From contig JAFDVU010000009.1 of assembly GCA_018268835.1 (NCBI GenBank), forward strand, positions 1 through 64,000: DNA of 64,000 nt. Direction: 5' to 3'. The translations under genes were made by a program, and so were the position numbers. Each line of letters begins with the position of its first letter. Within the stretch, counting starts at the first letter, position 1. Below, one piece after another: positions 45,541 to 58,220 of the stretch. The notes under the pieces were generated by a model, which saw only the letters and a list, made by a program, of their open reading frames with translations, did not search any database and was not told the DNA's origin. The DNA comes from Acidobacteriota bacterium. Its GTDB lineage: Bacteria; Acidobacteriota; Terriglobia; Bryobacterales; Bryobacteraceae.

Positions 45541-47049
45541 ATGTCCAGTCCGGAAAAACAGCATGACCGTGTTGCTGAACTCGCGAACCACCTGGCGACA
45601 CCGGAGATGATCGCGCGCTACGAACCGGTCATCGGGCTCGAAGTCCACGTCCAACTCGCCACCGCCACCAAGATCTTCTGCTCCTGCCCCACCGGCTTCG
45701 GCGCCGCGCCCAACACCAACGTCTGCCCGGTGTGCCTCGGCATGCCCGGCGCCCTGCCCGTCCTCAACCGCGCCGCCGTCGAACTCGCCATCAAAGCCGC
45801 GCTCGCCCTCAACTGCGCCATCCTCCCGCACTCCCGCTTCGCCCGCAAGAACTACTTCTACCCCGACCTCCCCAAGGGCTACCAGATCTCTCAATACGAC
45901 CAGCCCTACAGCGAGCACGGCTGGGTCGACGTGACGGTGGAGGGAGCGCGCAAACGCATCAGCATTACCCGCATCCACATGGAAGACGACGCCGGCAAGA
46001 GCGTCCACGACGGCTTTCGCGATTCCGACCGCTACTCCTACGTCGACCTCAACCGCAGCGGCACGCCCCTCATCGAAATCGTCAGCGACCCCGACATGCG
46101 CTCCAGCGACGAGGCCTACGCCTACCTCTCCGAGGTCAAACAGGTGCTCCAGTTCATCGAGGTCTCCACCTGCGACATGGAAAAGGGCCACCTGCGCTGC
46201 GACGCCAACGTCAGCGTGCGCCTCAAGGGGGCGGAGAAGTTCGGCACCAAGGCCGAGGTCAAGAACCTCAACTCCTTCCGCTTCCTCAAGCAGGCGCTGG
46301 ATTTCGAAATCGCCCGCCAGGTCGCCCTGATCGAAAGCGGCGGCAGGGTGGTGCAGGAAACCCGCCTCTACAACCCCGACGCCGGCGAGACCTTCAGCAT
46401 GCGCAGCAAGGAAGACGCGCACGACTACCGTTACTTCCCCGAGCCCGACCTCGTGCCGCTCGAAATCGGCCCGGACTGGCTCGAACGCACCCGCGCCGCC
46501 ATGCCCGAACTGCCCGCCGTGAAACGCGCGCGCTTCCTCGGCGAGATGGGGCTCTCCGAGTACGATGCCGACGTGCTCACCGCCGCCCGCTCCACCAGCG
46601 AGTACTTCGAGACCGTCGCCCGCGTCTCCGGCCAGCCCAAGATGGCCGCCAACTGGGTCATGGGCGACCTGATGGGTACCCTGAAGGCCGAAAACAAGGA
46701 GATCGCCGATTCCCCGGTCAGCGCCCAACACCTCGGCGAACTCGTGAAGCTGATCGCCTCCGGCGAACTCTCCGGCAAACTCGCCAAGGAGATCTTCCCG
46801 AAAATGTTCTCCACCGGCGAGGCTCCTTCGAGCATCGTGGAACGGGAAGGCTTAAAGCAGATCTCCGATACCGGCGCTCTGGAGAAGATCATCGACGACG
46901 TCATCGCCGCCAATCCCAAACAGGTCGAGCAGTATCGCGGCGGTAAAACCACGGTGGTCAACTTCCTGGTGGGTCAGGTCATGAAGGCCACTCGCGGCCA
47001 GGCCAACGTGGCCGTGGTCGGCGACCTGCTGAAACAGAAACTGGGGTGA
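45541..47049 (+). CDS. gatB: Asp/Glu-tRNA amidotransferase subunit B
   Basis: GatB binds the misacylated tRNA and, with GatA and GatC, converts Glu-tRNA(Gln) or Asp-tRNA(Asn) to the amide. It shows YEPVIGLEVHVQLATATKIF, the zinc-type CSC and CPVC near residues 44-65, and RIHMEDDAGKSVHD. The C-terminal YqeY-like region has VVNFLVGQVMKATRGQANV. It starts about 20 residues earlier than typical family members; GGAAGGACACCC before ATG 45541 supports that start. GatA and GatC are not in the window. Confidence 0.94.
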   Translation: MSSPEKQHDRVAELANHLATPEMIARYEPVIGLEVHVQLATATKIFCSCPTGFGAAPNTNVCPVCLGMPGALPVLNRAAVELAIKAALALNCAILPHSRFARKNYFYPDLPKGYQISQYDQPYSEHGWVDVTVEGARKRISITRIHMEDDAGKSVHDGFRDSDRYSYVDLNRSGTPLIEIVSDPDMRSSDEAYAYLSEVKQVLQFIEVSTCDMEKGHLRCDANVSVRLKGAEKFGTKAEVKNLNSFRFLKQALDFEIARQVALIESGGRVVQETRLYNPDAGETFSMRSKEDAHDYRYFPEPDLVPLEIGPDWLERTRAAMPELPAVKRARFLGEMGLSEYDADVLTAARSTSEYFETVARVSGQPKMAANWVMGDLMGTLKAENKEIADSPVSAQHLGELVKLIASGELSGKLAKEIFPKMFSTGEAPSSIVEREGLKQISDTGALEKIIDDVIAANPKQVEQYRGGKTTVVNFLVGQVMKATRGQANVAVVGDLLKQKLG

Positions 47050-47051
47050 CT

Positions 47052-47504
47052 ATGTTGAAGGTTGGCGATCCGGCTCCCGATATCCAGGTTCAGACCGATG
47101 CCGGCGAGGCTTTACAGTTGAGCGCCCTCAAGGGCAAGCGCGTCGTGCTGTACTTTTATCCCAAGGCGGACACGCCCGGCTGCACCACCGAAGCCTGCGA
47201 GTTCCGCGATTCCACGGCGGCACTGAAGAAGAAGGGCGCGGTGGTGCTCGGCATTTCGCCGGACAAGCCCGCCGCGCAGGCGAAGTTCAAGCAGAAGTAC
47301 GACCTGCCCTTCACGCTGCTGGCCGATGAGGATAAATCGGCGGCGCAGGCCTACGGCGTCTGGAAAGAGAAGAACATGTACGGCCGCAAGGTGATGGGGA
47401 TTGAACGCACGACGTTCGTCATCGGCCCCGACGGCAAAATCGAGAAGATCTACGCCAAGGTCAAGGCCAAAGGCCACGCCGCCGCCGTGCTCGAAGCGTT
47501 GTAG
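47052..47504 (+). CDS. bcp: Thioredoxin-dependent peroxiredoxin, Bcp/PrxQ type
   Basis: The protein reduces hydroperoxides with thioredoxin. It has the strand ALKGKRVVLYFYPKADTPG. The peroxidatic cysteine of PGCTTEACEF has the second cysteine five residues later, the pattern of E. coli Bcp. MGIERTTFVIGPDGKIEKIY is the C-terminal core. The start was taken as ATG at 47052; a GTG at 47046 overlaps the gatB stop. A duplicated piece of its 3' end lies just downstream. Confidence 0.92.
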   Translation: MLKVGDPAPDIQVQTDAGEALQLSALKGKRVVLYFYPKADTPGCTTEACEFRDSTAALKKKGAVVLGISPDKPAAQAKFKQKYDLPFTLLADEDKSAAQAYGVWKEKNMYGRKVMGIERTTFVIGPDGKIEKIYAKVKAKGHAAAVLEAL

Positions 47505-47510
47505 AGTAGC

Positions 47511-47528
47511 GCAGGCCTCCCGGCCTGC
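47511..47528. terminator. Palindromic hairpin after bcp
   Basis: GCAGGCC, loop TCCC, GGCCTGC, starting 6 bases after the bcp stop. It is a perfect 7-bp stem without a long T run, a possible terminator or short interspersed repeat; a related palindrome is at 47635-47651. Confidence 0.45.
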
Positions 47529-47634
47529 ATTCAAATACACGATCACGTCGCTCACCTGCCGCGCCGTGAACTGCGGGCCACGCCGCCACCGTGCTCCAAG
47601 CCCTGTAAAGTAGCGCCGGCCCCGGCATGGTAGC

Positions 47635-47651
47635 GTCGGCCTCCGGCCGAC
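47635..47651. repeat. Second GC-rich palindrome in the bcp/cytochrome gap
   Basis: GTCGGCC, loop TCC, GGCCGAC. It is preceded by TAGC, as is the hairpin at 47511 (TAGC-GCAGGCC and TAGC-GTCGGCC), suggesting one repeat family with compensating changes. Confidence 0.45.
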
Positions 47652-47717
47652 CTTTGGATCGAACCGGAATCTCCGCCGGCACGCCCCAAGCACTCGGGTT
47701 TTCGACCCGCGCCCCCG

Positions 47718-48821
47718 CTACTTCAGCGCATTCAAATACGCGATCAGGTCGCTCATCTGCTGCGCCGTGAACTGCGGCCACGGCAGCTTCTTCTCGTTCA
47801 TCAGGGCCAGCATCTTCGGACCGTGGTCCCACAGCGCCGAAACCATGGTGATCTGCGAGTAGCTCTCCGCCCCTTTGGCCAGCTTAGGCGCCGCGCCGCT
47901 ATCGTGGCACGCCGCGCACTTCTTCTCCCCGAATACCTTCTTGCCGCGCTCCGCATTGCCCGTCCCGGCGAAGTACTGCCGCGCCCAGACGTAGGTGATG
48001 ATCTCCCGCATCTCCTGCGGAGCCAGCGCCGGAGGCGGATTCTTCATGTTGGGCTGGTGGTTCCACATGTCCACCGCGATATCGGTCAGCGTCTGGTTGT
48101 GCAGCAGGTTCTCCAGCGCCATCCTGCCCTTGTGGCAATCGATGCAGCCCTTGCTCTGGAACAGCTTCTCGCCCGGTTCCGCCGGCGGGAAGGAAACCTG
48201 CGCCGCCAGGTTGCGCGTCTCCGGCAGGTTCTGCAGGTACACCAGCATGTCGGTCAGGTCCTGCGCGGTGAGCTGCTGCCAGGCGACCTTCTTCTTCTTG
48301 AACTCCTCGCGCATTTTCGCGCCGTGGTTCCACATCTGCTCGGCCAGCACCAGCGGGTCGGCCAGCGACTGCCACTTGGCCACCGGCGGCGCCGCCGCCA
48401 CCGGCGAACTCGTGATCCCGTGACAGTCCGCGCAGTGTTTCGCCGCGAACGCCTGCTTGCCTCGCGCCGCGTCGCCCGGCTTGTCGAAGTACCGCGCCGA
48501 AATGAAGTAGGCGAACAGATCCGCCGCGCCTTCCGGCGCCAGCGACGGCTTCTCCACACCCTGCTTGTTCATCTCGGCCCACATCTGCGGCGCGTGGTTC
48601 CACATCAGGCTGGCCATCATCGATGGCGTGAAGTCGCGGTCGATGCGCCGCCCCAGGTCAGGCCCCGCCGTCCCGCCCTTGCCCTTGATGCTGTGGCACT
48701 GCACGCAACGCTGGCTCTGGAACAGTTTCTCGCCGCGCTGCGCGTCGCCCGGCACGATGCCCGCCGCAAGCAGTCCCCAAGCGGCGACGGCGCCTGCCGC
48801 AATCACTCGAATCGTGGTCAT
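47718..48821 (-). CDS. Tetrahaem cytochrome c with four tandem domains
   Basis: The 367-residue exported protein has an N-terminal leader (RVIAAGAVAAWGLLAAG). Four cytochrome c domains each have one CXXCH: CVQCH (about residue 39), CADCH, CIDCH and CAACH. Each haem site is followed by a related segment: MWNHAPQM, MWNHGAKM, MWNHQPNM and LWDHGPKM. The conserved His or Met there could be the distal haem ligand. Domains 2 and 4 also share AQ-x2-(T/S)DL endings (TAQDLTDMLVYLQ, TAQQMSDLIAYLN). It ends the mtr-like operon, 10 bases after the MtrB-like gene. A role as periplasmic electron carrier is inference. Confidence 0.85.
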   Translation of the reverse strand: MTTIRVIAAGAVAAWGLLAAGIVPGDAQRGEKLFQSQRCVQCHSIKGKGGTAGPDLGRRIDRDFTPSMMASLMWNHAPQMWAEMNKQGVEKPSLAPEGAADLFAYFISARYFDKPGDAARGKQAFAAKHCADCHGITSSPVAAAPPVAKWQSLADPLVLAEQMWNHGAKMREEFKKKKVAWQQLTAQDLTDMLVYLQNLPETRNLAAQVSFPPAEPGEKLFQSKGCIDCHKGRMALENLLHNQTLTDIAVDMWNHQPNMKNPPPALAPQEMREIITYVWARQYFAGTGNAERGKKVFGEKKCAACHDSGAAPKLAKGAESYSQITMVSALWDHGPKMLALMNEKKLPWPQFTAQQMSDLIAYLNALK

Positions 48822-48831
48822 GGCTGGTCTC

Positions 48832-50838
48832 CTATTTAATCAGCCTCAGGCCGGTCATGAACAGGTGCGCGCGGAAACCCTCATACAGATACGCGGTCTC
48901 CCCGAACCCATACCACCGCCATTCGGTGTTCCATTGTACGTGCTTCTGCAGGGGAAGGGAAAGTTTCCCGACCGGCTGGTAGTAGCTCGTCGCCCGCGTG
49001 CCGTCCGATACGAACAGGCTGCCGCCCGCCGTCAACTTCGGCTCCATCCCGCCGACTTTCGGCAGATTGACGTCCAGCATGGAGGTCGCGGTATGCCCGT
49101 TCTCCCGGTACAGAGACACCGAAGGCATATAGAAAGGGAAAGCGAGATAGTTGATGTTGGAATCGAACGTCGTGCGGCTGTACTCCGCCATCAGGCTGAC
49201 GCGCTTGCCGCCCTCCGGCGTCCAGTACAGCGACAGGGAACTCGCGCGGCTGTCCAGGTTGTAGCGGATATCCGGCGACGGATTCTCGTTGGTCAGGTAC
49301 GCGAAGTTCGCCTGGATCCCCAGGCTCGCCAGCGCCTGATATCGCGCCCGCGCCCGCACCCGGTGATAGTTGTACAGGCTGGTGCGGAAATAATCGGTGG
49401 AGGTGGAGGCGCCCTCGTAGTCCACGTTCATCGACAGTTTCTTGAAAGGACGCGCCGTGATCCCCGCCAGGCCCACATCCCGCTTCAGGTCGCGCGACGC
49501 CAGCAGCCCGGATTGGTCGAACACCCCCGCGCGCACCGTCGCGTCGCCGAATTCGCGGCGCCAGCCGCCGCGCAGCGTCAGCTTCGAGAACACGTCCCAG
49601 ATGGCTTCCACCTGGTAGCGGTTGTAGTTCACCACCTGCAGCGTGTTCAGCGCGTTCGCCAGCGATTGCCCCGTCGCCGTCGGCGTGAGCAGGATCTGCT
49701 CCGTCAGCGCGCCGAAGCCCGTGGTGTGCTCCCGGTCCGTCATCCAGGATTGCACAATGCGCAGATTGCGGAACGGGCGCACTTCCATCCCGGCGTTGCC
49801 CACCACGTGCGGCTGGTTCGCCGCGCTCGCCCCGATGTTGAACTGCCCGCTGTACAGAAGCAGCGAGCTGATCAGGCCGAAATTCCCGTTGGCGATATCG
49901 AAGTAATTCGCGTTGGTCTTCGGCTCGCTCCACAGGAATTGCCCGTACAGGTCCACCCGCGACAGCGGGCTCGCCGTCGCCATGATCTTCGTGTACAGGC
50001 TCGTGCCCCGAATCCCGTACGCCTGCTGCAGGTTCTTCAGCACCAGCGTCGATCCCAGGAAGGGGGCCGTGCGGTCGCCGTAGTTGGTGCCGTTGAACCC
50101 CGCCTGGTCGTCTTCCTTAAACGTGGTGCCGCCCTGCTCCAGCGTCACGTGATAGCGGTTGTATTCGATGCGCACCCCGCCGCGATAATTGTTCGTGCTG
50201 TCGCGCAACAATGTCGGGACGGCGAACTCGTCGTTATTGTCCTGCACCCACGTCGCTACCCCGTGCCCGTAGCTCGAATTGCGCTCGAACACCAGGTACG
50301 GCAGGATGTGCCCGCCCGGGAACAACTCCAGATCCACGTACCCGTTGCGCCGGCGGATGTCGAAGGAGCGCTCGTCGAATCCACCAGGCGCGAACGGGTT
50401 GGCAAATGAAGGGATGGCGTTGAAGTAGGCGATGTTGCGGTAGTCCACCCGCAGATCGTAGATGCGTCGCTTGATCGCCTCGAGATGCGCCGTACTATAG
50501 GGATCTCCGCCCCAGCCGTCGCCGCGCGCGTCGATGCGGTCGAACAGGCGGTGCTTGGGATCCACCAGCGTGAAGTCCAGTCCGGTCAGTTTGGGTCCCT
50601 CGCCCAGGTTCACCACCGAACGATATTGCTGCGCGCTTCCGCGGACGTCTCCCACCCAGCGGTAGCCGAAATCGAAACTGCCCGTCAGCACCAGTGCGTC
50701 CGAAGCGGCCGGAGCGGGGTTTTCCGCCGCCGCTGCCTGCTCGGTCTTCGCCGGAGCCTTCTCGTCGGGCTTGGTCTGCGTCGCCGCTTCCTGGCCGAAC
50801 GCAAAAACCGGAATCATCAACGCCAGTAGCAGTCTCAT
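48832..50838 (-). CDS. MtrB/PioB-family outer-membrane barrel
   Basis: The 668-residue protein has a signal peptide (MRLLLALMIPVFAFG), a Lys/Pro/Ala-rich linker, then a beta barrel from about residue 50 (VLTGSFDFGYRWVGDVRGS) to the end (LFMTGLRLIK). Alternating strands such as YQVEAIWDVFSKLTLRGGW recur throughout. MtrB/PioB barrels sheath a decahaem MtrA in the outer membrane. The N-terminal CXXC of Shewanella MtrB is not visible. Its ATG overlaps the stop of the MtrA-like gene (ATGA, 4 bases), as expected for partners made together. Confidence 0.85.
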   Translation of the reverse strand: MRLLLALMIPVFAFGQEAATQTKPDEKAPAKTEQAAAAENPAPAASDALVLTGSFDFGYRWVGDVRGSAQQYRSVVNLGEGPKLTGLDFTLVDPKHRLFDRIDARGDGWGGDPYSTAHLEAIKRRIYDLRVDYRNIAYFNAIPSFANPFAPGGFDERSFDIRRRNGYVDLELFPGGHILPYLVFERNSSYGHGVATWVQDNNDEFAVPTLLRDSTNNYRGGVRIEYNRYHVTLEQGGTTFKEDDQAGFNGTNYGDRTAPFLGSTLVLKNLQQAYGIRGTSLYTKIMATASPLSRVDLYGQFLWSEPKTNANYFDIANGNFGLISSLLLYSGQFNIGASAANQPHVVGNAGMEVRPFRNLRIVQSWMTDREHTTGFGALTEQILLTPTATGQSLANALNTLQVVNYNRYQVEAIWDVFSKLTLRGGWRREFGDATVRAGVFDQSGLLASRDLKRDVGLAGITARPFKKLSMNVDYEGASTSTDYFRTSLYNYHRVRARARYQALASLGIQANFAYLTNENPSPDIRYNLDSRASSLSLYWTPEGGKRVSLMAEYSRTTFDSNINYLAFPFYMPSVSLYRENGHTATSMLDVNLPKVGGMEPKLTAGGSLFVSDGTRATSYYQPVGKLSLPLQKHVQWNTEWRWYGFGETAYLYEGFRAHLFMTGLRLIK

Positions 50839-51932
50839 TTGAGGAACGCCCGATCCACGTAAGATCCGTGCACCTTCTGGTGGCAGAGTGTGCAGTTTTG
50901 GAAACGCGGGCTGCGCAGGTCATGGAACGCAGGCCCCACCGTCCCCAGTGTCGATCCCGCCGCCGGAGTCGGCGTCGGTAGGTTGGCGTGGCACTCCTGG
51001 CAAAGCTGGCTCACTTGCGGACGCGTCAGCATCCGCGGATTCGCGCTGCCGTGCGGTTCATGGCAGGCCCCGCACCCTTCCAGGCGCACCGGCGCGTGCT
51101 CGTAGGGGAACGGTCCCACTTTCTCCCCGTGGCACTTGGCGCATCCCGGTTCGGTCGCCCGCGTGGTCTGGTACATGTGCACCATCGCGCTGCCGTGCGG
51201 ATTGTGGCAGTCCGTGCAGGACATCGCGCCTTCCGGCAGGCGGTGCTTGAAAGGCTTCTGGAAACTGGCCCAAATGTCGAGATGGCAGGCGGCGCACTGT
51301 TGGTTGATTGCCGCCGGCTTGCGTGCCACCAGGTCGTTGCCGTTGTTGCGGTGCACGAAGTGGCACGATACGCACGCCACCTGGTTGCGTGCATGGCTGC
51401 TGTTGATGCGCCCGGCTTGCGTCGTCGTGTTGCGATGGCAGGTCAGACAGATCGCATCCGCCGCCGATGGCTTCAGCTTCGCCGGCTGGCGGATCTGCGT
51501 GGCATCCGTCGAATCGGCGTGCTTGCTGCCCGGGCCGTGGCAGGATTCGCACCCGTTATTCTCAAAGCCCCGTTTTTTATCGGTCTCTACCACCGAGTGC
51601 GGACTCTTTTGAAACGCGTTGTAGATGTCTTCGTGGCAGGCCTGGCAAGTTTGCGATCCGACGTACTCGGCCGGTTTCTCCGGTCCCGCCGGCTTGGCTG
51701 GCTCCGCCGCCTTAGTCTGGTCTGAAGATGAAACCGGGGTGCCCGGCTTGGCTTCCTGGGCACCCCATAGAGTGATGGTCGTGAGTATGGCCGCGGCCAC
51801 GTGCGCCGCCAGGCGTCCCATTCGGATGCGCCGGTTGTTCCCGGCCGCGCCCGATCCGTTGGGGCGGCACCAGAGGCGCCCCGCCGCGGGGGCGGGACAC
51901 TCCTGGCGCGCCGTGGAGATGAGCCACAACAT
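50835..51932 (-). CDS. DmsE/MtrA-family decahaem cytochrome c
   Basis: Ten CXXCH motifs are visible: CQACH, CESCH, CLTCH, CVSCH, CAACH, CTDCH, CAKCH, CGACH, CQECH and CTLCH. They are evenly spread from about residue 95 to the end. This is the haem count and length of MtrA/DmsE, the rod that fits inside the MtrB barrel. AAAGGACTGACC precedes the ATG at 51932. A clearer signal peptide (MGRLAAHVAAAILTTITLWG) begins only at 51821, 37 residues later, so the start is uncertain. It lies 15 bases after the OmcA-like stop. Confidence 0.9.
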   Translation of the reverse strand: MLWLISTARQECPAPAAGRLWCRPNGSGAAGNNRRIRMGRLAAHVAAAILTTITLWGAQEAKPGTPVSSSDQTKAAEPAKPAGPEKPAEYVGSQTCQACHEDIYNAFQKSPHSVVETDKKRGFENNGCESCHGPGSKHADSTDATQIRQPAKLKPSAADAICLTCHRNTTTQAGRINSSHARNQVACVSCHFVHRNNGNDLVARKPAAINQQCAACHLDIWASFQKPFKHRLPEGAMSCTDCHNPHGSAMVHMYQTTRATEPGCAKCHGEKVGPFPYEHAPVRLEGCGACHEPHGSANPRMLTRPQVSQLCQECHANLPTPTPAAGSTLGTVGPAFHDLRSPRFQNCTLCHQKVHGSYVDRAFLK

Positions 51933-51947
51933 GGTCAGTCCTTTATG

Positions 51948-54086
51948 TTATTTGCCTGCGTGGACCTTGTCGACGTCGAAATCGGCACCAGTTCCGTGGC
52001 AAACGTCGCAGCTTTCACCAAACCTCTGGTCCGTCTGCGCCACCGCGTGGGCCAGAGCCGACAGCGACATGTGGCATGCCGTGCAGGCGGAGGTCGTCGC
52101 CGGTACCGGGCTGAACCGGCCTTCGGGATCGGTCACATTGTTCTTGCCGATCGGGAACGCCGCTTCGGACGTATTGACGTGGCACATGTAGCATTTCGCC
52201 GTGTCGCCAACCCCACCGGTGGGCGTCATCGTCGGATAGCGCACATCGCTGAAGTCGTTGTGGCTGCCGCCGAATCCCACGATCGTGTACGTCGCGCCGT
52301 CTTCCTGCATCTTTTCGCCCGTGTGGATCTTGTGGATCATCATGGCGAAGTTCACGCCCTGCGGGGGAGCCGCTTTGTCCGCCGCGTTCTGTGCGACGGG
52401 ACGGACGATCGCGTCGGTCTCGCTCGGGTTGTGGCAAAGAACGCACTGTTCGATCTGGTTGCGGTTCTCACCGTGCAGCGAGAGGAACGAGTGGCAGCCG
52501 TTGCACTTGGCGATGTCCACTACCTTGCGCCGCGGCGTCACTTTGGAACCGTCCACCGAGAAGTTGAACACCTTGTTGATGGCGCCATACTCGGTAGCGA
52601 TCTGCTGTTGCGTCCCGGCCAGCAGCGTCAGGGCGCGCCGCCCTTCGATGCCGATCGAGTAAGTCCCGGTCGCGTTCGCCGGAATCGCGTGCGTGAAAGT
52701 GTATGTGCAGGTGCCGTCGCCGGCGCACTGAGCGGTTGGAACCGGGTTCTCGGAAACATAGCCGCCAGTGGTCACGTCCGAACCGAAACTGGTGTAGCCG
52801 TAGTCGCTCGTCGGACCCGCCATCACCAGCGCCAGGCGGTTCGCACCACCGGTCAACTGCGCCATGGTCACGGCGTTGCCCTTGAAGTCGGTGGCCTTGA
52901 AGGTGACGGTAGGCTTCTTGCCGGCCTGGCCGTTATCGACCTTAAGAATGTCGAGCACGAGGCCCGGCCGCGTCGCCGACTGCGTTTCCACTGTGTGCGC
53001 ACCCATGATGGAAGCGTCAAACTCGAGTTCGCCCTGCGGAATGTGGCAGTTCTTGCACTCGTTGTCGGAAACCTGCGGCAGATTCACGTGATTCTGCCCG
53101 GTCGCGAAATTGACGTTGTCGTGGCAGCTTCCGCAAGCCACGCGGGTCGGATTCTTCAACCACGCGTCGGATTGCGTCGCGCCCGTCACGCTCTGCGGCT
53201 CATGACAGAACGAGCAGCGCCGCGGATCGCTCGGCAGTACCACGGTCGACCAGTCGCTCACCGCCTGCTGGTAGCCGATGATCTGGTACGGCGTCCCCGC
53301 CTTTACGCTCGGCAGCTCGCTGCCCATGTGGATCTTGTGGATGAACACCTTCATGTCCACCGTGTTGCCCGTATCCGGATCGGTGGTCTGCGGCGTGTGG
53401 CACATGATGCACAGCTCCATGCTGCGCCGCGAACCGCCGTGGAACGCCAACTGGTCGTGGCACTTGTTGCAGGATGCCGTACGGATCACGTCGCGCGGCG
53501 CCGGTGTGCCGCCCGCCGGAACCCACGTCAGCGTGTCGTCATCGTAGTTGGTGCCCAGGTCGAACTCGGTCAGGTTGCGCGACCCGTAAACACCCACGCG
53601 GTGGGTCGCCGTCGGATCGTAGTTCCCCGTCGGCGGGACCGCCTTTTGCTTGAAGGTGTAGACGAACTCCCCGTCCGCCACCTGCTTCACCGTTCCGCCC
53701 GAATCCGTGCCCGCCTGAACCGCCGTCACCTTCGTGATCGGACTGGTCTGCGGGCGCGTCGTGTAGGCCACAAACTGCGACTGCCCCTGCGGAATATAAG
53801 CCGCCAGGAAGCTCACCGAGATAGCACCCGGCGTTGTGACGCCTGCCGGATCCAGGGGCAGGCCTTTAGGATCGGTCAGTTTATAATCCACGCTGATGGT
53901 GCCATCCTGCGCGATACCGGCCGATACGATCTTGATGATGAGGCCCGGCCGGACAAAATTCACCGTTGCCGGCGAGGCGTAATACGCCTTGTCGAAAACG
54001 TTGAATTCAGTCTTTTTGGCCGCGCCTGATAGCGCGACGCTGGCCGCGACCGCTGCCAGCGCCAAAACCATAAAACGAATCCGCAT
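51948..54086 (-). CDS. OmcA/MtrC-family decahaem cytochrome c
   Basis: The 712-residue protein has ten CXXCH motifs in two groups of five: CNKCH, CIMCH, CSFCH, CGSCH, CKNCH, and CNGCH, CVLCH, CYMCH, CTACH, CDVCH. A beta domain precedes each group, at about residues 20-200 and 350-510. This split matches the four-domain fold of Shewanella MtrC/OmcA, where two pentahaem domains alternate with Greek-key domains. The paired FIHKIHMGSEL and MIHKIHTGEKM also show an internal duplication. The leader (MVLALAAVAASVALSGAA) lacks the lipobox cysteine of MtrC. GGGGAG precedes ATG 54086. Confidence 0.9.
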   Translation of the reverse strand: MRIRFMVLALAAVAASVALSGAAKKTEFNVFDKAYYASPATVNFVRPGLIIKIVSAGIAQDGTISVDYKLTDPKGLPLDPAGVTTPGAISVSFLAAYIPQGQSQFVAYTTRPQTSPITKVTAVQAGTDSGGTVKQVADGEFVYTFKQKAVPPTGNYDPTATHRVGVYGSRNLTEFDLGTNYDDDTLTWVPAGGTPAPRDVIRTASCNKCHDQLAFHGGSRRSMELCIMCHTPQTTDPDTGNTVDMKVFIHKIHMGSELPSVKAGTPYQIIGYQQAVSDWSTVVLPSDPRRCSFCHEPQSVTGATQSDAWLKNPTRVACGSCHDNVNFATGQNHVNLPQVSDNECKNCHIPQGELEFDASIMGAHTVETQSATRPGLVLDILKVDNGQAGKKPTVTFKATDFKGNAVTMAQLTGGANRLALVMAGPTSDYGYTSFGSDVTTGGYVSENPVPTAQCAGDGTCTYTFTHAIPANATGTYSIGIEGRRALTLLAGTQQQIATEYGAINKVFNFSVDGSKVTPRRKVVDIAKCNGCHSFLSLHGENRNQIEQCVLCHNPSETDAIVRPVAQNAADKAAPPQGVNFAMMIHKIHTGEKMQEDGATYTIVGFGGSHNDFSDVRYPTMTPTGGVGDTAKCYMCHVNTSEAAFPIGKNNVTDPEGRFSPVPATTSACTACHMSLSALAHAVAQTDQRFGESCDVCHGTGADFDVDKVHAGK

Positions 54087-54756
54087 ACGAAATCTCCCCA
54101 ATTAATGACAACCGAGCTTCTTGGTCACAGCACACGCCGCACCAAACCGCCGCCGTTCCGAAACAGACCCGGAACTCTTTTATAATCACTATGTTGATTT
54201 TTTCAGCATACACCTGAGGTCGTTGTCTACACCTCCGGTGTGGGTGAAAAGGCGTGAGCTATGGGTGAAAACTCGCTGATTCGACCTCGCTTGGACGGTA
54301 TCTCTGATCGCCTCGCTTATCTCGGGATAGGTTCACTCCCCTTGGTCATGCGGCATCTGCGTTCGCGCCTGCCGCTCCCCGGTCCGCCCGGTCCCATCGG
54401 GTTTCGCGCCTCCGGGTACCCGGGGTCTAACCCGGTTGCTCACCTCCGAGTCGCCTTGCCCCCGAAACCATCCCATCCGGAAGCACCTCCCCGGAAGCCG
54501 TCCAAAGCCTCGCCCAATGCGCCCGAAATCGCCCCCTTGCGTCTTTAAATCGAGATTATTCAGCACCTTGCACGCTTCCCCGCGCTGCGGAGGTCCCGGA
54601 GGGGAAAGGCACACCCAGGCCATTCGGACGCTAGCCAGTTGGTACTAGATCTACCGAATTTTATCTTTAGGACAAATTCGTAGTTGATTTCGGACTGACT
54701 AGTATGTATTCTGACAGAGCGGTAGGGAAATTCCTTAGGACACTAGGACACAGCCG
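54087..54756. other. 670-base intergenic region upstream of the cytochrome operon
   Basis: No convincing gene. An open frame at 54261-54548 gives a Pro/Arg-rich product of no known type. Two dyads, ACCT-G-AGGT (54212-54220) and ACACC-TCC-GGTGT (54229-54241), lie 126-155 bases before the cytochrome start and might be regulator sites. An AT-rich stretch at about 54176-54206 may hold the operon promoter, but I find no good -35 box. The right part carries a promoter for the small gene. Confidence 0.5.
54684..54712 (+). promoter_or_regulatory. Sigma70-like promoter for the small helical protein
   Basis: TTGATT and TATTCT lie 17 bases apart, 45 bases before the ATG at 54757. The surrounding sequence is AT-richer than the genes. 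Confidence 0.45.
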
Positions 54757-54969
54757 ATGACGCTCACGAACGTTCTCCCGATGCCTTCCCTCTCACAGCG
54801 CGCTTCGAACCGCGGTTCCGACGAGATCCGCATCCGGGCACTGGAACGCCTGTACGAACGCAGGGCAGCCGTTGACGAACTGATCGAGTCCCTTGAAAAC
54901 TACCAGCGCGCGCGCACGGGGCACACCGCGATGTGCGTGCCGTTTACCGCGGCACAGAAGTGCTCGTAA
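54757..54969 (+). CDS. Small helical protein (70 residues)
   Basis: I do not recognise the family. The core (ALERLYERRAAVDELIESLE) looks like a single amphipathic helix of the coiled-coil type. A possible promoter lies 45 bases upstream, and AGGACACAGCCG precedes the ATG. Its end overlaps the convergent response regulator gene by 26 bases. A similar small protein is encoded at 57419. Confidence 0.5.
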   Translation: MTLTNVLPMPSLSQRASNRGSDEIRIRALERLYERRAAVDELIESLENYQRARTGHTAMCVPFTAAQKCS

Positions 54970-55606
54970 GATTGCGCTCGATCGCGAACTTCACCAATCC
55001 CACCAGGTCGTGGACGTTCAATTTCCGCATCAGGCTCGCCCGGTAGGTATCGACGGTCTTGGGACTGATTTCCAATAACTCGGCGATATCTTTGGCACGC
55101 AGCCCGTTGACGAGATAGGAGAATACCTCCATCTCGCGCGGACTGAGACCGGCCAGCGGGTCTTCCGGCCGGCTCTTGCCTCCCTGCGTGAACAGGCCCG
55201 CGCCCTTTAGCAGCGGTGACACGTAGACGCCGCCGTCGCGCACGTAGGTCACGGCATCCAGCAGGTGCCGCCCCGGCCCGTCCTTCAGAAGATACGCGTC
55301 CGCCCCCGCCCGCAACGCCTCCATCACGGTGTTCTCTTCACGGCTGATCGAGAGGATCAGCAGTTTCGCCTTGCACCCGCCGGCGCGCAGTTTTCGGATC
55401 ACCTCGATGCCCGTCATGCTCGGCATGTGCAGATCCAGAATCGCGAAGTCCGGCTTCATCTGCTCGATCATCTCGATCGCCGCCGGCCCGTCGGATACCT
55501 GCCCGAGGATCCGCATCCCGTGAGCCGCGCACAACGCCGCAATTCCCTCCCGGACGATGTTGTGGTCGTCGGCCAACACCACGCTGATCTGATCGCTCTC
55601 CTGCAT
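54944..55606 (-). CDS. NarL/FixJ-family response regulator
   Basis: The 220-residue protein is a receiver with VVLADDHN (Asp13-Asp14), phospho-acceptor Asp58 in FAILDLHMPSM, and the Lys of AYLLKDGPGRH. A LuxR-type HTH follows (LSPREMEVFSYLVNGL and SPKTVDTYRASLMRKL). GGATAAGGGAGCAGG precedes the ATG. It follows the kinase at 55638 by 31 bases and forms a two-component pair. It lies on the same strand as the cytochrome operon, upstream of it, and is a candidate regulator, which is inference from position. Confidence 0.9.
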   Translation of the reverse strand: MQESDQISVVLADDHNIVREGIAALCAAHGMRILGQVSDGPAAIEMIEQMKPDFAILDLHMPSMTGIEVIRKLRAGGCKAKLLILSISREENTVMEALRAGADAYLLKDGPGRHLLDAVTYVRDGGVYVSPLLKGAGLFTQGGKSRPEDPLAGLSPREMEVFSYLVNGLRAKDIAELLEISPKTVDTYRASLMRKLNVHDLVGLVKFAIERNLTSTSVPR

Positions 55607-55637
55607 CCTGCTCCCTTATCCGCGCTCTTCCGGGGAT

Positions 55638-56681
55638 TTATTCGCTGATGGAAATTGGCACGGAGACTACCAGTTTAGTGCCAAGCGGACCGCTTTCCAT
55701 ATCAAAATTTCCACCGCAGCCCGCAACCTGCTCGCGGATCGACCTCAGTCCGATGCCCGCGCCCACATTCGCCTCCGCCGCGCGCAGCCGCGCCACGTCG
55801 AACCCCACCCCGTTGTCTCTCACGGTCAGTTGCACGCGCTCCCCGTCGGCAAGCAGCGACGCTTCCACCGCGGTCGCGCCCGCGTGCCGCACGATGTTCG
55901 AAAGGGCCTCCTGCAAAGACCGGTAGATTAGCGCCTTGATCTCCGGATCCGGTTCCCGCGGCAGAGCCTCGATGCGCAACTCCGCCGCGTAGCGCTCGGC
56001 GATCCCGCTGGTCCGCCACAATTGCCGCACCGCTTCCTCCAGCGTCAGCCGCTGCCACTCCGGCGGATGCAGCCGGTGGGACACCGCCCGTACCTGCTCC
56101 AGCGCGTCCGCGGCGAGGCGGCCGATGTTGTCCAGCGCCATCCGCACCTTCGGAGGCGGCAGCGGCATCTCCGCGCCGATCAGTTCCAGTTGCAGCCGGA
56201 TCGCCGCCAGCGCCTGTCCTACCCCGGTGTGCAGGTCGCGCCCCAAGCGCTGACGCTCCTGCTCCAACTGCCGGATCATCTTGCGTCCGGTGGCCGCGCC
56301 CCGTAGCTCCCGGACCTGCCCCGCCAGCCGCCGCTCGTCCTCTACCAGGTGGAAGTAGCCGCGCAGCAGCCGCCCCTCCAGCCGCAGGCACTCCAGCAGC
56401 AACCGGTCCGGCAACTGCGGGGGACGCGCCCCCACCACCACCGTGTTCGTCGTCTCCCAGACGCGCCAGAAATGCCACGAATACACCCGGAACCGCGGCG
56501 CATCCCGACCCTCGGACGGCCGCGAGGATAGCGTCAGGTCGCTCAGATGTTCGATTTTGCCCACCGTCTCACGCGCCCGCTGGCTCATCCAGACGATCCG
56601 GCCGCTGGAGTCGCACTCCAGCAACAGGGGGTATGCGAGAGATTCCTTAGGGGCGAATCCGGGTTGGGAACCCTGGTTCAA
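55638..56681 (-). CDS. NarL-type sensor histidine kinase
   Basis: The 347-residue protein has a PAS-like N-terminus (LLLECDSSGRIVWMSQRARE) and a helical connector. The HisKA_3 domain has phospho-acceptor His151 in LGRDLHTGVGQALAAI, and the HATPase has TVRDNGVGFD and GLRSIREQVAG. There is no membrane segment, so a soluble sensor is likely. The start is TTG at 56681, behind AGGAGACTCCCGGA. It is read in the same direction as its partner regulator. Confidence 0.87.
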   Translation of the reverse strand: MNQGSQPGFAPKESLAYPLLLECDSSGRIVWMSQRARETVGKIEHLSDLTLSSRPSEGRDAPRFRVYSWHFWRVWETTNTVVVGARPPQLPDRLLLECLRLEGRLLRGYFHLVEDERRLAGQVRELRGAATGRKMIRQLEQERQRLGRDLHTGVGQALAAIRLQLELIGAEMPLPPPKVRMALDNIGRLAADALEQVRAVSHRLHPPEWQRLTLEEAVRQLWRTSGIAERYAAELRIEALPREPDPEIKALIYRSLQEALSNIVRHAGATAVEASLLADGERVQLTVRDNGVGFDVARLRAAEANVGAGIGLRSIREQVAGCGGNFDMESGPLGTKLVVSVPISISE

Positions 56682-56830
56682 TCCGGGAGTCTCCTGATTT
56701 ACACAGTTCGTTCCCCTGCAGAATGACAGTCCCGTCGCGTACGCTGCAATGCGGGTACGTACCTGGTACTTCCCTATCCAAACGCAAGACTTGCGCTTCC
56801 TTCCGGGAAAGCGCTATAAGGGAATCACCG

Positions 56831-57301
56831 ATGTCGCGCGTGTTAACTTACGTTCCAAGGGTCGCGATCTTCCTGGCGGGCGCCGCCGCCGCTGCCCTCA
56901 CCATGCCCCGCCGCGAGCATGCCGGCATGGATCCCGCGGCCGTGGACGATCTCAAGAAGTCGCTGGCCGGGCTTGATGCCCGCATGCAGGCACGCGAGGC
57001 CGCCGACGACACCCGCTTCGCCCAGATCGAAACCCGCCTCGAGGAACACTCCTCCCGGTTGGCCGAGGTGCCTTCCACAGCCCAGATCGTCGCCGCCATG
57101 GAGCAACTCCTCTCCAAGACGATGTCCTCGCTCGACGATCGCCTCTCCGCTCAGGCCCGCTCCATCGAAGTCCTCAAGACCACTGTCTCCCAGACCGACA
57201 GCCTGCTCGAACGCGTCCTCGAGTCCCTCGACACGCTGCAAAGCTACACTGAACCGGCCGATCTCGCCGGCGACCCCATTCTCAGCCGCCCGCCGGTTTG
57301 A
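56831..57301 (+). CDS. Membrane-anchored coiled-coil protein
   Basis: I do not recognise a family. The 156-residue protein has an N-terminal transmembrane helix (RVAIFLAGAAAAALTMP). Heptad-rich helices follow to the end (DLKKSLAGLDARMQAREA, MSSLDDRLSAQARSIEVLK), then a short Pro-rich tail. AAGGGAATCACCG precedes the ATG at 56831; a longer frame upstream has no matching signal. It could form dimers or trimers in the periplasm. Confidence 0.6.
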   Translation: MSRVLTYVPRVAIFLAGAAAAALTMPRREHAGMDPAAVDDLKKSLAGLDARMQAREAADDTRFAQIETRLEEHSSRLAEVPSTAQIVAAMEQLLSKTMSSLDDRLSAQARSIEVLKTTVSQTDSLLERVLESLDTLQSYTEPADLAGDPILSRPPV

Positions 57302-57418
57302 TCCCTCCTCAGACCCGCTCTACAGGATTTTCCCCTCGGCAGCGATCCGACGCCGAATTGTCGGAATTCGCTGATATGAACGCCGATTCAAACGCACTAT
57401 GCTCAGGATAGGGATGCC

Positions 57419-57628
57419 ATGGATCTGGCTAAGGTATTGGAGCAGTTGCGCAGAGAACTGGACCATTTGAACGCGGCCATCGTAAGTCTGGAGCGTCTTC
57501 AATCCCGCGAGGTCCGCCGCGGCCGCCCGCCGCGCGCCCTGTTGGACCTGCGCCGCCTCAAGGCAGCCGCCGACGCCGATCCCTCCCCCCAGCCCCGCCG
57601 CACCCAGCGCCGCGATGGCGATTCCTGA
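57419..57628 (+). CDS. Small helical protein (69 residues)
   Basis: The core (LEQLRRELDHLNAAIVSLE) is an amphipathic helix, followed by a basic, Arg/Pro-rich tail. The ATG at 57419 follows AGGATAGGGATGCC. It shares the pattern of a short helix ending in SLE with the small protein at 54757, which could reflect common origin or simply composition. No family is recognised. Confidence 0.5.
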   Translation: MDLAKVLEQLRRELDHLNAAIVSLERLQSREVRRGRPPRALLDLRRLKAAADADPSPQPRRTQRRDGDS

Positions 57629-57659
57629 ACGTCTGAAACTCGCGTGGTCCCGGCGCTAC

Positions 57660-58220
57660 CTACTCCAGCGCCGGCAAGTGCTCCGGCCGCACCAGCACCC
57701 GTATGGATCGCGCCTGGCCCGGAGTCCGTTCGATGAAGCCGCGCAGTTCGAGCGCCTGGATCATCTGGTGGACGCTCGGCGGCGTGGTCTGAAAGTGCCG
57801 CTGGAGATCCGATTCCGCCGGTGCCCGGCCATGGATCCTCGAGTAGGTGTAAATGAACGCCAGATACTGCCCCTGTTTCTTCGTGAATCGCGGTGCGATC
57901 GACGGATCGAGCCCCGGAGCCGGATCGATGCGCACCCGGAATGCGCCCTCGCCGCGGCCGTCGTCGACGCCCACCGTCAGAATCCACACTCGGCCACCGA
58001 TCGCGGTGCGGACGGGCGTCCTCAGGGCGGCGCGCAGATTCTTCCGCAGTTCCTTCGCGTCGCGGCTCGTGCTCTTGAAGTTCGCCGTGGCAAACGCCGT
58101 CTCGCCGCGGCGTGCAAAGACCTGGTCACGGCCGTCGCTATATTCCACTTCGAGGGACTGGGCGCCGTGGGAAAGACCGTGCTCGCACAAGTCTTCCAGC
58201 AGACTTCTCGGCTTGCTCAT
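57660..58220 (-). CDS. Protein with C-terminal LexA-like winged helix
   Basis: The 186-residue protein has an unrecognised N-terminal part (about residues 1-110; EDLCEHGLSHGAQSLEVEYS). The C-terminal part (about 112-180) follows the LexA DNA-binding pattern: FTKKQGQYLAFIYTYSRIHG, then APAESDLQRHFQTTPPSVHQ as the recognition helix, then GFIERTPGQARSIRVL as the wing. It lacks the LexA Ser/Lys protease domain. It may be a DNA-binding regulator of unknown target. It lies downstream of ssb on the same strand, 73 bases away. Confidence 0.7.
   Translation of the reverse strand: MSKPRSLLEDLCEHGLSHGAQSLEVEYSDGRDQVFARRGETAFATANFKSTSRDAKELRKNLRAALRTPVRTAIGGRVWILTVGVDDGRGEGAFRVRIDPAPGLDPSIAPRFTKKQGQYLAFIYTYSRIHGRAPAESDLQRHFQTTPPSVHQMIQALELRGFIERTPGQARSIRVLVRPEHLPALE

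Follow-up and report, generated by a model that had tools for sequence, protein, structure and literature searches.

The window analysed here (the whole stretch of 64,000 nucleotides) contains, on its minus strand, a gene cluster resembling mtrCAB. Two questions arise from it: which inner-membrane protein is connected to such a conduit, and do electrons leave the cell through it or enter? There have been few tests of the part that the abundant Acidobacteria of soils play in iron and humic redox cycling; with this operon, the genus is a plausible participant.

Organization of the gene cluster

Four tightly packed minus-strand open reading frames (mtrC, mtrA, a barrel gene and an additional gene designated gene 4) occupy positions 47718-54086 (Table 1). 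Their translations contain 10, 10, 0 and 4 CXXCH motifs, respectively. The mtrC, mtrA and barrel genes are contiguous, as expected of an MtrCAB cluster (gaps of 15 and -4 bases, the latter an overlap), and the barrel gene is followed by gene 4 after 10 bases. Gene positions, motif numbers and junctions exactly reproduced those of the initial annotation, and the spacing is consistent with its proposal that the genes form one operon coding for an MtrCAB-type conduit plus an extra cytochrome.

Table 1. Positions and characteristics of the features discussed in the text
Feature	Position	Strand	Description	Matches and motifs
mtrC	51948..54086	-	OmcA/MtrC-family decahaem cytochrome, 712 aa from ATG	TIGR03507, 10 CXXCH
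mtrA	50835..51932	-	DmsE/MtrA-family decahaem cytochrome, 365 aa	TIGR03508, PDB match 6r2q_A
mtrB-like	48832..50838	-	Outer-membrane beta barrel, 668 aa, no cysteine	AlphaFold2 model, PDB fold match
gene 4	47718..48821	-	Four tandem class-I cytochrome c domains, 367 aa, signal-like N-terminus	PF00034/PF13442
Response regulator	54944..55606	-	LuxR-type, possible regulator of the operon	PF00072 + PF00196
Histidine kinase	55638..56681	-	Located beside the response regulator	PF07730 + PF02518

The ATG codon of mtrC at 54086 is preceded by the purine-rich, Shine-Dalgarno-like sequence GGGGAG; a longer version starting with the TTG at 54101 is less likely. For mtrA a later start at Met 38 was considered and dropped, and the 15-base distance from mtrC was kept, because the mtrA genes of close relatives also begin just after mtrC.

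The decahaem cytochromes MtrC and MtrA

The initial annotation had assigned the first three genes to an MtrC-MtrA-MtrB conduit. For two of the products this was borne out by profile searches: MtrC matched TIGR03507 with 603 bits (cut-off 209.3) over positions 3-672 of the 672 in the profile, and MtrA matched TIGR03508 with 257 bits (cut-off 192.2), both far beyond chance, whereas TIGR03509 gave no match for the barrel. The PDB matches of MtrC were OmcA, MtrF and MtrC. MtrA matched chain 6r2q_A (E 5.5e-36), which belongs to 6r2q, a PDB entry with the title Structure of the Mtr complex. Ten histidines located outside the CXXCH motifs are invariant in 11 MtrA homologues, which is the number needed for the ten bis-His haems that MtrA would carry.

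MtrC has a signal peptide without a lipobox, and the same is true for nearly all of 72 full-length homologues. This counts against the circuit proposed below, in which the surface location of MtrC is a prediction. The rest of the putative complex probably keeps MtrC in place, other ways of anchoring being possible. As GspD scored above its cut-off in the window's genome, a type II secretion route is likely in this organism.

The same genome contains further genes of these families. Two full-length MtrC-family genes (L020:8300-10516, minus strand, and L021:8912-10933, plus strand) gave 515 and 491 bits with TIGR03507, respectively, and had neither mtrA nor mtrB in the fetched flanks. A second pair of MtrA-like and barrel genes was found at L022:1-2887 (minus strand; G000:C335). 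The MtrA-like protein of this pair gave 281 bits with TIGR03508, the two proteins are 41% (MtrA) and 26% (barrel) identical to those encoded in the window, and there was no MtrC in the fetched stretch.

The outer-membrane barrel

The barrel had originally been described as MtrB/PioB-type. At the sequence level this was not reproduced: hmmscan gave no match between the barrel and TIGR03509, a genome-wide search with this profile was also negative (it returned no control match either), and a sequence profile made from 47 barrel homologues found no MtrB in the PDB. The fold, however, agreed with the description. The AlphaFold2 model obtained from the same 47 homologues (pLDDT 84.4) has about 26 strands when counted manually, with two broken strands joined; MtrB has 26 strands (Edwards et al. 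2020, PMC7198977). Both Foldseek and VIA-align selected MtrB (6r2q_B) as the best PDB match of the model, and the VIA-align superposition had a Z score of 25.7 over 560 residues (next best Z 16.3). Judged by modelled fold and gene order, the barrel is MtrB-like and lies outside TIGR03509. The negative results with TIGR03509 and with the sequence profile count against the proposed circuit.

Gene 4 encodes four class-I cytochrome domains

The product of gene 4 had been annotated as a tetrahaem cytochrome. The four CXXCH motifs were found, but the idea of a compact tetrahaem protein was rejected, since each motif sits in its own class-I domain and the four domains are arranged in tandem. Of the Pfam families, Cytochrom_C gave matches, and Cytochrome_CBB3 did so in four stretches. 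The structural model is helical, and single domains have class-I cytochromes as weak structural neighbours, including MtoD (4xxl, Z 5.3). A gene-4 profile gave weak alignments with the cytochrome c subunits of bc1 and cbb3.

Every domain contains one CXXCH and one WxHxxxM motif. In 43 sequences the histidine of WxH is invariant in all four domains, and the methionine of WxHxxxM is present in 43, 43, 37 and 42 sequences for domains 1-4, respectively. Either residue could be the sixth haem ligand, and the fold and profile searches favoured neither; the choice bears on the redox potential of gene 4 and on the direction of electron flow. His/His instead of His/Met haems are possible, since of the two candidate ligands the WxH histidine shows the stronger conservation. 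Gene 4 is a probable periplasmic relay.

Distribution among relatives

A scan of named genomes yielded 80 loci, nearly all of them labelled Solibacter, Bryobacterales, Bryobacteraceae or unclassified Acidobacteria/Terriglobia; one record bears the name Nevskia soli. The named relatives of the cluster are Candidatus Solibacter and other Bryobacterales. The mtrC gene adjoins mtrA in 65 of 70 related loci; where the sequence was long enough (63 loci), mtrB is followed by gene 4 in 45. When 120 genomes of the order were compared, gene 4 was present in 57 of the 73 barrel-positive but only 6 of the 47 barrel-negative genomes (p about 7e-13, a value that ignores shared ancestry), and the two genes were adjacent in 43 genomes.

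MtrA and MtrC homologues of Acidobacteria were noted earlier in peat (PMC3669403), and the MtrCAB clusters of Acidobacteriia/Bryobacterales have been classified as Group 5, in which the gene directly downstream of mtrB has a product predicted to be a periplasmic tetrahaem cytochrome (Baker et al. 2022, PMC8805035). With gene 4 placed 10 bases after mtrB and with Solibacter/Bryobacterales as relatives, the present cluster is, matched by description, a further member of Group 5. Other genomes share the arrangement, which has been published and was seen in the majority of the related loci retrieved.

For Group 5 no quinone oxidoreductase was reported nearby, in an analysis that covered the loci and no wider search for cymA or accessory cytochromes, and there were no adjacent mtrC duplicates (PMC8805035). 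Compared by description, the window shares with Group 5 the order mtrC-mtrA-mtrB followed by the tetrahaem gene, and it has no quinone oxidoreductase gene. In contrast to the clusters of Baker et al., an ImcH-like gene lies close to the cluster in some of the relatives studied here, and two tandem mtrC genes are present in some. The tandem pair is located upstream of mtrA in several Bryobacterales (L056, L063, L075, L088, L090, L120).

A candidate inner-membrane partner

No Cytochrom_NNT match was found within the window, in agreement with the initial annotation, according to which a CymA-like quinol dehydrogenase was absent from it. The only match in the genome lies outside the window, on contig 312, and is an ImcH-like protein (PF03264, 35 bits); CymA was therefore rejected for the genome as well. 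The ImcH-like protein has transmembrane regions at 23-50, 56-81 and 106-124, a CX3CH motif (CGETCH) and five CX2CH motifs. These are the features of ImcH, namely three N-terminal transmembrane regions, an adjacent CX3CH and 5-9 CX2CH (Shi et al. 2018, PMC6295460), the likeness to Geobacter ImcH being one of description. All of 18 ImcH-like homologues have the CX3CH and five CX2CH motifs, and a simple hydropathy scan assigned them 2-3 transmembrane regions, with three in the majority of copies. On contig 312 the ImcH-like protein is adjoined by a CbcL-like protein with nine CX2CH motifs and a b561-type membrane part, in which it resembles, again by description, Geobacter CbcL. The window's genome contains one such pair.

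Among the 48 related loci that were long enough to judge, 17 had the ImcH-like gene close to mtrCAB, frequently as part of one tightly spaced series of genes; in L062, L064, L066, L082, L086 and L098 it follows gene 4 or mtrB after 2-11 bases. It was present in all 23 barrel-positive genomes versus 2 of 18 barrel-negative ones (n=41; shared ancestry ignored), and it also tracks the barrel in family f3, where just one member is barrel-positive. Shi et al. reported that imcH had no adjacent mtrAB (PMC6295460). Linkage of an ImcH-like gene to MtrCAB, by which these relatives differ from Geobacter ImcH/CbcL, appears unreported as far as a limited literature search can tell. It provides a concrete candidate for the inner-membrane partner of conduits that had been reported without one beside them, and the ImcH-like gene and the operon together make a gene set open to deletion or expression tests.

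The quinol dehydrogenase missing from the window is likely to be the ImcH-like/CbcL-like pair of contig 312. The location of this pair on another contig, and the fact that most fetched loci have no ImcH-like or CbcL-like genes next to mtrCAB, count against the circuit proposed below.

A related gene fusion was noticed in a single genome, G032, a member of the Bryobacterales. One open frame of 1164 amino acids with 27 CXXCH motifs (L035:9811-13305, minus strand; G032:C12) combines MtrA with an ImcH-like part and also contains four c7-type repeats and a signal-peptide-like stretch. Among 18 genomes of its family the fusion was found in G032 only, and an assembly error is possible. In G032, MtrA, c7-type repeats and an ImcH-like protein may be parts of one polypeptide with 27 haems.

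Proposed circuit and direction of electron flow

The cluster is best explained, and in our judgement probably so, as an MtrCAB-type conduit with gene 4 as relay, an ImcH/CbcL-like partner and net outward flow of electrons. Quinol would be oxidised in the inner membrane by the ImcH/CbcL-like pair and not by CymA, and gene 4, as a soluble periplasmic relay, would carry the electrons from the inner membrane to MtrA. The ten-haem rod of MtrA inside the MtrB-fold barrel would then lead them across the outer membrane, and at the cell surface the ten-haem MtrC would receive them and pass them on to outside acceptors. The net direction is most likely outward, and the acceptors in soil would be Fe(III), Mn(IV) or humics. 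Two points favour this direction: quinol oxidation is the one process in which ImcH has been implicated so far (PMC6295460), and the single RuBisCO-family protein detected in the genome is closest to OiaX.

The same conduit could conduct inwards, from Fe(II) or another outside donor via MtrC and MtrA to gene 4 and from there to a high-potential oxidase or quinone, a direction likened to that proposed for the Pio and Mto systems. We regard this as unlikely, and keep it as a rival because CbcL/MtoC types have been implicated in both directions. Homologues of CbcL/MtoC occur also in iron oxidisers (PMC6295460) and MtoD, a weak neighbour of the class-I domains of gene 4, has been proposed to act in iron oxidation; both points count against outward flow. 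Moreover, MtrAB homologues run inwards in other bacteria, and the methionine present in most gene-4 domains allows a high-potential His/Met haem. PioAB and MtoAB share with the present cluster an MtrA-type decahaem protein in an MtrB-type barrel and class-I cytochromes such as MtoD. They differ from it in that here MtrC is present, the partner is ImcH-like and gene 4 has four class-I domains against one in MtoD. The presence of MtrC and the linked ImcH-like partner argue against inward flow, as does the lack of a true RuBisCO in the genome, RuBisCO being the one marker of autotrophic iron oxidation that the search covered.

The RuBisCO-family protein (L134:1492-3642, minus strand; G000:C303) reached 435 bits with OiaX, below the 700-bit cut-off of that family. 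Its gene adjoins a sugar-acid-kinase-like frame, and it probably belongs to the catabolic RuBisCO-like proteins.

The usual partners of class-I cytochrome domains include bc1-type complexes and oxidases. Flow could accordingly be outward with gene 4 receiving electrons from a bc1-type complex, alternative complex III or another periplasmic carrier; the ImcH/CbcL-like pair would then be a separate system, and its co-occurrence with the barrel would reflect ancestry. The weak alignment of gene 4 to bc1 and cbb3 subunits and the distance between the ImcH-like gene and mtrCAB in the window's genome fit this explanation. It is made improbable by the relatives in which gene 4 or mtrB has the ImcH-like gene immediately behind it and by the way this gene tracks the barrel across genomes, including the f3 family member. 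Membership of MtrA in the DmsE/MtrA profile family would allow MtrC to serve a soluble outside substrate (DMSO, iodate or another oxyanion) rather than metals or humics, but this is very improbable, as an MtrC-type decahaem cytochrome forms the outer partner and inspection of the ORF list revealed no molybdopterin reductase gene beside the operon.

The proposed conduit resembles Shewanella MtrCAB (6r2q, PMC7198977) in the C-A-B order, the decahaem MtrC and MtrA, and a barrel with the MtrB fold and about 26 strands. It differs from it in the barrel sequence (about 12% identical, and below TIGR03509), in the MtrC without lipobox, in the extra four-domain cytochrome, and in having an ImcH/CbcL-like pair, no CymA having been found. 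We tentatively suggest that the Bryobacterales system may be a composite, in which a Shewanella-type MtrCAB is fed by a Geobacter-type ImcH/CbcL through a clade-specific four-domain relay, possibly with His/His haems.

Upstream region and regulatory genes

About 840 bases between mtrC and the response regulator gene (54102-54943) contain no convincing gene. Riboswitch control of the operon was rejected, there being no Rfam match at E values up to 1 in 46000-58000. A scan for promoters and terminators gave matches no more frequent than in shuffled sequences, and no clear promoter was seen in 54102-54943. Homologues of the response regulator, 70-82% identical to it, are located upstream of mtrC in 8 related loci, and in the same 8 loci a homologue of the histidine kinase adjoins the regulator.
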